Source: Streptomyces griseus (GTDB taxonomy: Bacteria; Actinomycetota; Actinomycetes; Nanopelagicales; Nanopelagicaceae). From it: a DNA stretch of 64,000 nucleotides. The stretch's first letter is position 1. Each line of letters opens with the position of its first letter. Shown piece after piece: positions 18,134 to 20,210 of the stretch. The stretch covers positions 1-64,000 of the forward strand of contig CAMBDL010000007.1 in NCBI GenBank assembly GCA_945865365.1, read 5' to 3'. The notes under the pieces were generated by a model that worked only from the letters and a program-made list of their open reading frames with translations, searched no databases and had not been told where the DNA came from. Made by a program: the position numbers and the translations under genes.

Positions 18134-18533
18134 TACCGATACCCACTTGCGCAATGCTCACTTGATCAAGATTAAGGAAAGTTGGGGTCTCAGAGGGTTT
18201 CATTCCAAGTCGTACCGCCGCTTTTGATAGCGCTTCAGGTGAAGACTGCTTATCAATCTGCCGAGCGATTGCTTCACGTTCATCACTGACCATTTTTGCT
18301 TGAAGTTTGAGATGTGTGAGCGTAAAAGCATCCTGCGCCAAAAGCGTATTTATGAAAAGCAAAAAGAGTAGTCCGCAAACCCCAGCACAAGTGACGAAGG
18401 TTGCAAAGAACTTACGGCTGGCCTGCTTGTCATCTGAAATATTTGGAACGAGCTTAAGAGCGACCTGTGATGATTTTTCAGTAAGAATTTCTCGTGAGCG
18501 AGTAATGGCTGGGGCGAATACGGTCATAGCCAT
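18126..18533 (-). CDS. ftsL: FtsL-like septum protein
   Basis: A 135-residue protein between rsmH and ftsI, the standard place of ftsL. A cytoplasmic N-terminus of about 45 residues precedes one strong membrane segment (about 46-66, ending LLFLLFINTLLA). A predicted alpha-helical stretch with heptad-like spacing follows (HLKLQAKMVSDEREAIARQI), then AVRLGMKPSETPTF, a motif seen at the end of FtsL-type division proteins. The sequence family diverges strongly, so the name rests on topology and position. The start codon shares a base with the rsmH stop. Confidence 0.8.
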   Translation of the reverse strand: MAMTVFAPAITRSREILTEKSSQVALKLVPNISDDKQASRKFFATFVTCAGVCGLLFLLFINTLLAQDAFTLTHLKLQAKMVSDEREAIARQIDKQSSPEALSKAAVRLGMKPSETPTFLNLDQVSIAQVGIGNG

Positions 18534-19480
18534 TATGCGGCCACTCTTTCGATTGCACGTAGTCGAACTGAGGCGGATCTGGAGTTTTCTTCTAACTCTT
18601 TTTCTGAAGGAGTTTCACTGCCCCGTATAACCAATGAAAACTTGGCAGCCAACTCTGGAAGTTCGAATGGAAGATTGCGAGGCGTACCTGACGTTGTCGA
18701 TGCCACAAAAAGCTCTTTCACAATTCGATCTTCAAGTGACTGGAATGACATAACGACTAATCGCCCGCCCACAGAGAGGAGTTTGAGTGCAGTGGGTAAA
18801 GCACGGGTAATCGCACCTAGTTCATCATTAGTTTCAATGCGCAGGGCTTGAAAGGTGCGCTTAGCAGGGTTTCCACCAGTTCGACGTGTTGCTGCAGGGA
18901 TCGCGGCCTTAACCAGGTTTGCTAAAGCGCTAGTGGAGTTCAGAGGCGCAATTGCACGCGCCTTCACAATCGATTCGACTACGCGAGTAGCGAATTTTTC
19001 TTCGCCATAGGTCCGTAAAATACGAACTAACTGACCAGGTTCATATGTATTTACAATTTCAGCGGCAGTGAGGGATTGCGTGCGATCCATGCGCATATCT
19101 AGTGGGGCGTCTTGCGAATAAGAAAAACCGCGGTTTGCTTCATCAAGCTGCATAGAAGAAACACCGAGATCAAAAAGTGCTCCAACAATTGAGCTGTAGC
19201 CAAAGGAGTTAATAACTTCCTCTATCGAATCAAATGTTGCATGAGCCATATGAAGGCGATCTGAGAATGGAGCTAACCGAAGAGTTGCACTATCAAGTGC
19301 ATCGCGGTCTCGATCAATTCCAATGACGGTGAGCTGAGGGAATTCTTGAAGTAACGCCTCTGTGTGTCCTCCTAAGCCAAGAGTTGCATCGACCACAACT
19401 GGGTTAGCGCAAGAATGTATTGCAGGAGTAAGAAGTTCGATACATCGATCACGCATTACTGAAATATGCTCACTCGTCAT
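18533..19480 (-). CDS. rsmH: 16S rRNA m4C1402 methyltransferase RsmH (MraW)
   Basis: A SAM-dependent enzyme that methylates N4 of C1402 of 16S rRNA. The ATG at 19480 (MTSEHISVM) has GGGGGAG just upstream and gives 315 residues; another ATG lies five codons earlier. Family motifs include HISVMRDRCIELL, DATLGLGGHTEALL (SAM loop), GIDRDRDAL, LFDLGVSSMQLD and the C-terminal FQSLEDRIVK. It is separated from mraZ by a 164-bp spacer that holds a large folded RNA element. Confidence 0.96.
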   Translation of the reverse strand: MTSEHISVMRDRCIELLTPAIHSCANPVVVDATLGLGGHTEALLQEFPQLTVIGIDRDRDALDSATLRLAPFSDRLHMAHATFDSIEEVINSFGYSSIVGALFDLGVSSMQLDEANRGFSYSQDAPLDMRMDRTQSLTAAEIVNTYEPGQLVRILRTYGEEKFATRVVESIVKARAIAPLNSTSALANLVKAAIPAATRRTGGNPAKRTFQALRIETNDELGAITRALPTALKLLSVGGRLVVMSFQSLEDRIVKELFVASTTSGTPRNLPFELPELAAKFSLVIRGSETPSEKELEENSRSASVRLRAIERVAA

Positions 19481-19536
19481 TACTCCCCCTTTCATTGAAC
19501 GATCACTAACTAACTTTTACTACGTACTTTCATTTC

Positions 19537-19641
19537 AACTCTCATCTCTGGTCACCGCCGGCCGACGGATCTGTTTAGTAGCGGCACCGGGGAAGGGGCG
19601 CCGCTACGTTCGAAGGGTCGGCGGTGGCCACAGATGAGAGT
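19537..19641 (-). ncRNA. Structured RNA upstream of rsmH (mraW-motif-like)
   Basis: The mraZ-rsmH spacer contains a long imperfect hairpin. ACTCTCATCT (19538-19547) pairs with AGATGAGAGT (19632-19641). After one mismatch the helix continues with TGG/CCA, a G-U pair and a GC-rich CACCGCC/GGCGGTG block (19553-19559 with 19620-19626). A nested perfect stem GTAGCGGC/GCCGCTAC (about 19578-19606) lies inside, joined by a CTTCGAACG strand on the minus side. Weinberg and colleagues described an 'mraW RNA motif' in front of mraW operons of some actinobacteria; position fits it well. A covariance-model search would settle identity. It should act as a cis leader for rsmH and downstream wall genes. Confidence 0.75.
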
Positions 19642-19644
19642 CAT

Positions 19645-20076
19645 TTAGAAAAGTCCTGGGAAAACCTCCTCTGATACATCGGCAAAACTCTTTTCGCGAT
19701 CTGCTAAATATTCATTCCATGAAGTTGCATCCCAAATTTCAACGCGAGTATTTGCACCGATAACAACACAATCTTTTTCTAATCCGGCATATGTGCGAAG
19801 TCCTTGTGGAATTGTTATGCGTCCTTGACGATCTGGAATTTCATCATGTGCACCTGCAAACATCACACGGCTGTAATCGCGTGCTGATTTTGCAGTGACT
19901 GGCGCTTGTTTTAGCGTCTCTGTAATAACAGTGAATTCATTTGTTGGAAAAACATAAAGGCAACGCTCTTGTCCTTTAGTAATTACTAAACCTGATGCAA
20001 GTTCTTCGCGAAATTTCGCAGGAAGAATCAGACGGCCTTTTTCATCAAGGCGCGGTTCGTGGGTGCCAAGAAACAT
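19645..20076 (-). CDS. mraZ: Transcriptional regulator MraZ
   Basis: A 143-residue protein made of two SpoVT/AbrB-like half domains. The first is [24 protein letters not shown]-like (about residues 1-50) and the second contains [18 protein letters not shown] (about 78-120). MraZ forms rings that bind direct repeats upstream of its own gene and represses the dcw operon in bacteria where it has been tested. The first gene of the dcw cluster; eight 10-bp-spaced repeats lie just upstream, which strongly suggests autoregulation. The ATG at 20076 follows a GGGGGC-type ribosome site. Confidence 0.96.
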
Positions 20077-20130
20077 TTTCAGCGCCCCCTTCCCCAGGTT
20101 CGCCAGCCGTGTGGATCCTCGGCTTAGTTC

Positions 20131-20210
20131 CCCACTTTACTCCACTTTGCTCCTTTTTCAACCACCTTTCGCCACTTTTTGCCCTTTTCCACCCACTCTC
20201 CCCCACCCGT
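20131..20210 (-). promoter_or_regulatory. MraZ operator: eight 10-bp repeats
   Basis: Upstream of mraZ the plus strand has CCACTTT or close variants in exact 10-bp register at 20132, 20142, 20152 (CCTTTTT), 20162 (CCACCTT), 20172, 20182 (CCCTTTT), 20192 (CCCACTC) and 20202 (CCCACCC). On the mraZ strand this reads AAAGTGG plus three variable bases. Known MraZ boxes are GTGG/TGGG-core direct repeats with the same period. Four copies are near-perfect and four degenerate. The array begins about 55 bp upstream of the mraZ ATG. Confidence 0.85.

Follow-up and report, generated by a model that had tools for sequence, protein, structure and literature searches.

Small RNAs of Actinobacteria such as 6C RNA carry C-rich hairpin loops that are directed at ribosome-binding sites rich in G. 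In Staphylococcus aureus, a UCCCCUG sequence in the 3'-UTR of icaR pairs with the Shine-Dalgarno sequence UAGGGGG of its own message, and this pairing is reported to block the ribosome and to create a substrate for RNase III (PMC3868564). The mraW RNA motif (RF01746), introduced by Weinberg et al. in 2010 (PMC2864571), has been listed since then as a putative cis-regulator of peptidoglycan synthesis; a paper on mycobacterial RNAs names it a putative regulator of this pathway (PMC9569102), and a 2017 paper states that its function "remains unknown" (PMC5640933). The open literature consulted that names the motif or RF01746 assigns it no function, and a search of open papers found none that describes pairing between the mraW loop and a start site.

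The window, that is, the whole stretch of 64,000 nucleotides analysed here, contains an element of this type between mraZ and rsmH, on the rsmH strand, and the same gene order is seen in its relatives. The features discussed below are the following:

18533-19480, minus strand: rsmH (mraW) (PF01795, 351.6 bits for the 315-aa reading)
19529-19646, minus strand: mraW-type RNA element (cmscan with RF01746, 33.8 bits, model positions 1-107 of 107, untruncated)
19537-19547, minus strand: 3' arm of the outer helix (from the fold; 11 bp, 19642-19632 with 19547-19537)
19578-19607, minus strand: apical hairpin (from the fold; 11-bp stem, 19607-19597 with 19588-19578)
19589-19596, minus strand: apical loop CCUUCCCC, the proposed pairing site (8 nucleotides; order consensus NCUUCCCC)
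19632-19642, minus strand: 5' arm of the outer helix (from the fold; compensatory changes in the helix 1 columns)
19645-20076, minus strand: mraZ, 143 aa (PF02381, 139 bits)
20086-20095, minus strand: GGGGAAGGGG, including the mraZ Shine-Dalgarno region, the proposed partner of the loop (core GGGGAAGG at 20088-20095)
20126-20175, minus strand: five GTGG-type units of 10 bp, presumably MraZ boxes, upstream of mraZ (read from the sequence)

A first-pass annotation of this DNA had placed a large folded RNA at 19537-19641, with a long outer helix and a nested stem, and had related it to the mraW motif. Its borders proved right to within one base. The minus-strand fold of 19644-19496 has a predicted energy of -66.4 kcal/mol, compared to a mean of -38.5 for 200 dinucleotide shuffles (z = -7.2, 0/200 as good), and it comprises both the 11-bp outer helix and the 11-bp apical stem. 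Inward of the outer helix, helices of 3, 8 and 2 bp are separated by single mismatches and lead to an internal loop; the apical loop CCUUCCCC is closed by a C-G pair and is predicted to be unpaired (P 0.95-1.0) in all 11 loci tested. Since the genes lie on the minus strand, we place the RNA on that strand as well; the plus strand also folds because the element is nearly palindromic. We took a plus-strand ORF crossing the element (19362-19637) as a chance ORF. On reading the sequence, we saw no U-run after the long helix that would signal an intrinsic terminator.

The link to the mraW motif was also borne out: RF01746 matches the element over its full length with an E-value of 4.7e-5 in a scan of 901 bases, and this match is the only one genome-wide (E = 1.8e-5). 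Its 33.8 bits lie below the Rfam gathering score of 50 bits, which is the curators' reporting cut-off rather than a biological feature, so that a scan of the window at gathering thresholds lists nothing at this locus; for this reason we term the element a diverged homologue and not a curated member of the family. Weak matches to other Rfam families (H19_3, MIR5635, FourU, CcsR1, anti-hemB and others) were at chance level and were rejected.

The element is found throughout the order formed by Ca. Planktophila and its relatives. RF01746 matches were obtained in 46 of 60 relatives and, at E<=1, in 133 of 201 genomes of the order, with 0/201 reaching the gathering cut-off; under strict filters (E<=0.001), 40 of 396 genomes of the phylum have a match. 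We built an order-level model, R1, from 49 order sequences, after removing near-duplicates and capping the number of loci per genus. R1 detects the element in all 112 order genomes with at least 90% completeness, some of which contributed to its training, and matches the window at 19522-19660 on the minus strand with 124.7 bits (E = 3.7e-33), this element being itself among the training sequences. In the 49 sequences, standard pairs occupy 97.3% of pair cells and 20 of 30 pairs show compensatory change on both sides, which runs against the refuting outcome named in the first-pass annotation, a lack of covariance support or of conserved stems. The covariation score (0.331 versus 0.127 in shuffled alignments, with 0/500 shuffles reaching any of five measures; RNAalifold was also used) refers to a structure derived from the same 49-sequence alignment; a control in which pairing partners were slid gives only 0.05-0.09 versus 0.33 for the real partners, which leans toward the structure despite the shared alignment. 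Helix 2, the apical stem, is paired in 99.2% of cells, with double changes in 4 of its 8 pairs. Given its presence across the order and its covarying pairs, the element is a real RNA and a diverged homologue of the mraW motif.

Within the long helix, a C-A mismatch and its adjoining pairs (GGC.CAC with GUG.A.CC, 19626-19630 and 19549-19553) hardly vary at all, which hints at a tertiary or protein contact at this place.

The CUUCCCC core of the apical loop is invariant in 49/49 aligned order sequences and was seen in 58 of 59 loci, the exception being L027, where a second analysis did find the loop. The full loop CCUUCCCC (19596-19589) is the exact complement, over 8/8 bases, of the mraZ Shine-Dalgarno region GGGGAAGG (20095-20088). 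The sequence upstream of mraZ reads CCTGGGGAAGGGGGCGCTGAAAATG, with GGGGAAGGGG lying 11 nucleotides before the ATG. As the 3' end of 16S rRNA in relatives is CCTCCTTTCT, AAGG(G)GG can serve as a Shine-Dalgarno word, and it overlaps the 3' half of the loop target. This candidate partner of the mraW loop, the mraZ Shine-Dalgarno region, is the new point suggested by our sequence analysis.

The match recurs in relatives. Among GTDB loci, 79 of 80 have a readable mraZ leader (it is missing in the one left out); this set, which overlaps with the earlier genomes, has GGGGAAG in 76 leaders and GGGGAAGG in 72, and the loop is present in 78/78 loci with enough downstream DNA. In the five genera with A-type sites, GGGGAAGG occurs in 72 of 74 mraZ leaders. 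Past position 8 of the mraZ word, bases vary even within a genus, so the strictest word is as long as the loop. The CUUCCCC core being invariant in the aligned set, the loop/Shine-Dalgarno pairing has no demonstrable compensatory change. The first base of the loop, N, was considered as a covarying position (A-T, T-A and C-G matches are seen in some genera) and rejected, as there are mismatches elsewhere: several loci (L029, L078, L093) have A against G. A hairpin at the mraZ Shine-Dalgarno sequence with GGGGAAG exposed in its loop was likewise rejected as suggestive only: its mean z is -1.0 in 60 distinct leaders, and some leaders lack it. In predicted transcript folds, the mraZ Shine-Dalgarno sequence is partly paired (P unpaired 0.03-0.78).

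At the DNA level, the 10-mer GGGGAAGGGG has just two copies in 1,411,459 bases (1.41 Mb), on opposite strands: one at 19589-19598 (plus), complementing the loop, the other at 20086-20095 (minus), at the mraZ start site. By hand count, there are 84 copies in 36 relatives from five genera; an inverted pair about 500 bp apart is found in 30 of the 36, of which 21 have no further copy, and one member alone is found in the other 6. Such inverted spacing would also be expected if GGGGAAGG and its inverted copy were two DNA sites for one protein, for example MraZ, bridged by a DNA loop. MraZ boxes are G-rich, and the GTGG-type repeats just upstream of mraZ are presumably of the kind bound by MraZ. 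However, the TGGG core expected of such boxes is not kept, since the base preceding GGGGAAGG is T, C or A. The two copies coincide precisely with two RNA features, the unpaired loop of a hairpin that covaries and the position of ribosome binding at mraZ; the strictest word has the length of the RNA loop; and the leader site of other genera is a hairpin whose arms show compensatory changes. We thus hold the DNA-loop explanation to be very improbable. A pairing between RNAs accounts for these observations better. We considered the other genome copies of GGGGAAGG as targets in trans and rejected them: of 17 copies in all, 2 lie at a plausible start, that of mraZ and that of a phosphoribosyltransferase ORF, about the number expected by chance. 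In another instance (L340), a GTG 2 nucleotides past GGGGAAGG was judged too near for a start.

The sole plausible start with GGGGAAGG other than mraZ (L342, G000:C1:137354-137361) belongs to a 176-aa ORF with a phosphoribosyltransferase fold, which we take to be PyrR-like by its N-terminus.

Is the match specific to mraZ? We compared it with 357 background ORFs taken from the window and from twenty 20-kb stretches, a set with a size limit that mraZ itself does not reach. GGGGAAG occurs within 30 nucleotides before any candidate start in 1 of these 357 ORFs, compared to 75 of 123 order loci at mraZ. When we scanned from 130 nucleotides before mraZ into rsmH for the best duplex partner of the loop, at those loci with a readable mraZ (104 in the order and 49 in other families), the mraZ leader came first in 86 of the 104 order loci and the rsmH leader in 18, with coding sequence in 0. 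The 49 other-family loci were more dispersed: mraZ leader in 23, mraZ coding sequence in 10, rsmH leader in 9, the motif itself in 5 and rsmH coding sequence in 2. In genus g1, the duplex between loop and mraZ Shine-Dalgarno sequence reaches -15.8 kcal/mol, a value equalled by 0 of 118 background genes of that genus, and it beats the duplex of the same Shine-Dalgarno sequence with the 16S anti-Shine-Dalgarno oligonucleotide (median -11.4).

When the loop sequence is permuted, the real loop ranks near the top in genera g1, g267, g270 and g278 (median rank 0.04-0.05). Scrambled loops perform worse than the real one in these four genera and in g276; they are not worse in g271, g272 and g268. At 34 other-family loci, the real loop is no better than scrambled versions (median rank 0.54). 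A general actinobacterial rule pairing the loop with the mraZ Shine-Dalgarno sequence was therefore rejected: in 17 other-family loci the mraZ Shine-Dalgarno sequence does beat most background genes (KS p 5e-8), but scrambled loops do equally well, so that what is matched there is simply a G-rich Shine-Dalgarno sequence. The exact match thus characterizes certain genera of the order; it is not general among mraW RNAs. By the same token, the conserved loop either had another, earlier role outside the order or has a role not seen here.

These results bear on the most ordinary explanation, namely that the loop is kept for an older cause, such as protein binding, and that the mraZ site is a G-rich ribosome-binding site matching it through chance and descent. 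The reduction of the match to G-richness outside the order would agree with this, as would the fact that relatives are not independent: on a tree of 125 rows, A-type sites form two clades plus single cases. Yet chance fits poorly with a 7-mer seen upstream of just 1 of 357 other genes and a 10-mer otherwise missing from the genome, and a second, different match between the mraZ leader and the mraW element arose in other genera. We consider this explanation as improbable as that of a DNA loop.

The second match involves another part of each RNA. Among 49 non-A loci, 36 have in the mraZ leader, about 40 nucleotides before the start, a hairpin with a C-GGGG-G tip, which is found in 5 of 9466 background tiles and in 0 of the 49 other-family loci. 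It has a perfect stem whose arms differ by genus (for example L087, L104, L119 and L127), with at least 13 different arms, or 11 without two look-alikes from the A clades, and it occurs in genera g269, g271, g272, g275, g276 and g279. Genomes with this hairpin have a C-run in the mraW internal loop, on its 3' side. Over 123 loci, hairpin and CCCC run are both present in 36, the run alone in 5, the hairpin alone in 0, and neither in 82. This link was found by exploration, and its independent test lies in the hold-out loci only, 19 in number (20 further loci, less one whose leader was missing). With the prediction fixed before these loci were fetched, 17 of 19 were right: a hairpin is present in 6 of the 8 loci with at least five C (L358 and L361 lack it) and in 0 of the 11 with fewer, an outcome with a chance probability of 28/27132, or about 0.001, without tree correction. 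With tree correction, the association has a phi of 0.86, which 0/1500 simulations reach, and the hairpin and GGGGAAGG are mutually exclusive (phi = -0.66, 7/1500 simulations). The simulations assume independent evolution with symmetric rates on 137 rows, identical ones having been removed, and the underlying tree, built from about 240 residues, is weakly supported in its backbone.

Two leaders carry GGGGAAG outside the ribosome-binding site: that of L251 (g273) has a hairpin with loop TGGGGAAG, and that of L250 (g277) contains GGGGAAGT. From their sequences, a third form of contact between mraZ leader and mraW element is possible. Neither of the two contacts is found in strict form in g268 (0/8 loci), g273, g280 and most of g274.

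Does the loop act on rsmH instead? It could form a pseudoknot with the rsmH Shine-Dalgarno sequence, making the element an ordinary leader of the wall operon, perhaps with a protein or a small molecule as its signal. The rsmH leaders do carry GGGGAAG, which complements the loop, at 27 of 123 order loci versus 1 of 357 background genes, and often where mraZ lacks GGGGAAGG. It forms the rsmH ribosome-binding site in g269, half of g272, g274, g276, g277 and g279 (for example L115, L126, L095 and L121), and permutation ranks are good (0.01-0.09) for the rsmH site in six genera, g269, g270, g274, g276, g277 and g279. In the window, however, the rsmH start, which we picked from its ribosome-binding site and from relatives, is the ATG at 19480 (the longest ORF would begin at 19495), and it is preceded by GGGGGAG at 19489-19483. 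This is the form seen in the window's genus, where the fit of the loop to the rsmH site is unspecific (median permutation rank 0.52 over 51 loci). A toggle between the mraZ and rsmH Shine-Dalgarno sequences was accordingly rejected for this genus and retained for other genera only.

Transcript data from Corynebacterium also speak against control of rsmH alone. The motif lies above the mraW start site in C. diphtheriae, and in C. glutamicum the start site at 2,266,932 is inside the motif, at 2,267,021-2,266,916 (PMC5784534, PMC3890552). With start sites inside or below it, the element there belongs with the mraZ message and not with a short rsmH leader, which argues against a plain rsmH riboswitch in these species. 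The first-pass annotation had envisaged probing the element with peptidoglycan precursors; nothing in our analysis of the sequence points to such a ligand or to any other small molecule, and no part of the RNA near the loop appears to resemble a ligand pocket. We regard this explanation, in which the loop controls rsmH, as quite unlikely.

A combined reading is that, across the order, the mraW RNA serves as a contact hub linking the dcw message with the leader of its regulator gene through two nearly exclusive pairs of sites, with several lineages also matching the loop to the rsmH start. Judging from the site pairs, we see this as a serious possibility, slightly more doubtful than not. Such a hub would mean that a structured intercistronic RNA determines, through long-range pairing, how much repressor is made relative to wall enzymes; the orphan mraW motif would thereby gain a first mechanism.

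RNA cleavage could intervene in yet another way. The element may be mainly a processing site, in which RNase III would cut the helix of about 35 bp, part mraZ from the rsmH/dcw message and set their ratio, the complementarity being secondary. The hairpin is indeed long and mostly double-stranded. In C. glutamicum, RNase III cleavage of the mraZ mRNA is needed for division according to Maeda et al. 2016, as cited in PMC8247434 and PMC6705760. A mapped 5' end of mraW in this species lies within the motif. The reported cleavage is located, as far as these accounts tell, in the mraZ coding region, outside the motif. Moreover, a hairpin serving for cleavage alone has no need of an invariant loop; the word at the start of mraZ that matches it and the leader hairpin tracking a C-run would be superfluous as well. 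Processing as the main function is thus unlikely in our opinion, if somewhat less so than the other alternatives.

The explanation that we find best as a whole, and moderately probable, is that a long-range RNA contact of the mraW element with its own message masks the mraZ start site. The mraW RNA would be made within the mraZ transcript, assuming that this transcript spans both, and would fold back onto that transcript. Loop CCUUCCCC would, in Planktophila and its sister genera, pair with GGGGAAGG at the mraZ Shine-Dalgarno sequence, about 500 nucleotides upstream, either in cis or between two transcripts; in the remaining genera of the order, contact would be made by the GGGG-tipped leader hairpin and the C-run in the mraW internal loop. 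Pairing would bar ribosomes from mraZ, and the resulting double strand may be cut by RNase III. Presence of the downstream part of the message would then lower the synthesis of MraZ, the presumed repressor of dcw. Such a brake would matter, given that extra MraZ in Dietzia causes delayed growth and misshapen, multiseptate cells (PMC9602371).

The first-pass annotation had inferred two layers of control on the dcw genes, one at the DNA and one at the RNA level. The DNA layer is plausible in view of the five GTGG-type units at 20126-20175. As for the RNA layer, our results suggest a form not foreseen there, that is, pairing of the loop with the mraZ Shine-Dalgarno sequence, acting on the upstream mraZ gene rather than on the downstream wall operon, or besides it. 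If true, this would explain how MraZ, the division regulator, stays coordinated with the wall genes under its control, and bacteria that rank among the most abundant in fresh water would have an RNA-level feedback within their dcw cluster.

How does this locus compare with described systems? With the mraW motif it shares its position between mraZ and rsmH/mraW, its strand, a long mismatched helix and an apical hairpin with an invariant CUUCCCC loop. It differs in scoring below the curated threshold and in having an AT-richer outer helix, and the order differs from the 49 other-family loci, which lack the specific form, in that its mraZ or rsmH leaders contain words that match the element exactly. 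With 6C-type small RNAs it has in common a C-rich hairpin loop facing a G-rich ribosome-binding site; those RNAs, however, act in trans on many messages, whereas GGGGAAGG lies at 2 plausible starts among 17 copies here. The icaR case is similar in that a C-rich word downstream of a repressor gene complements the G-rich Shine-Dalgarno sequence of the same message. The pairing was measured for icaR and is inferred from sequence here, and the icaR word lies in the 3'-UTR of a single gene, whereas that of the present locus forms the loop of a conserved structured RNA placed within an operon, between the gene of a repressor and the genes it targets.
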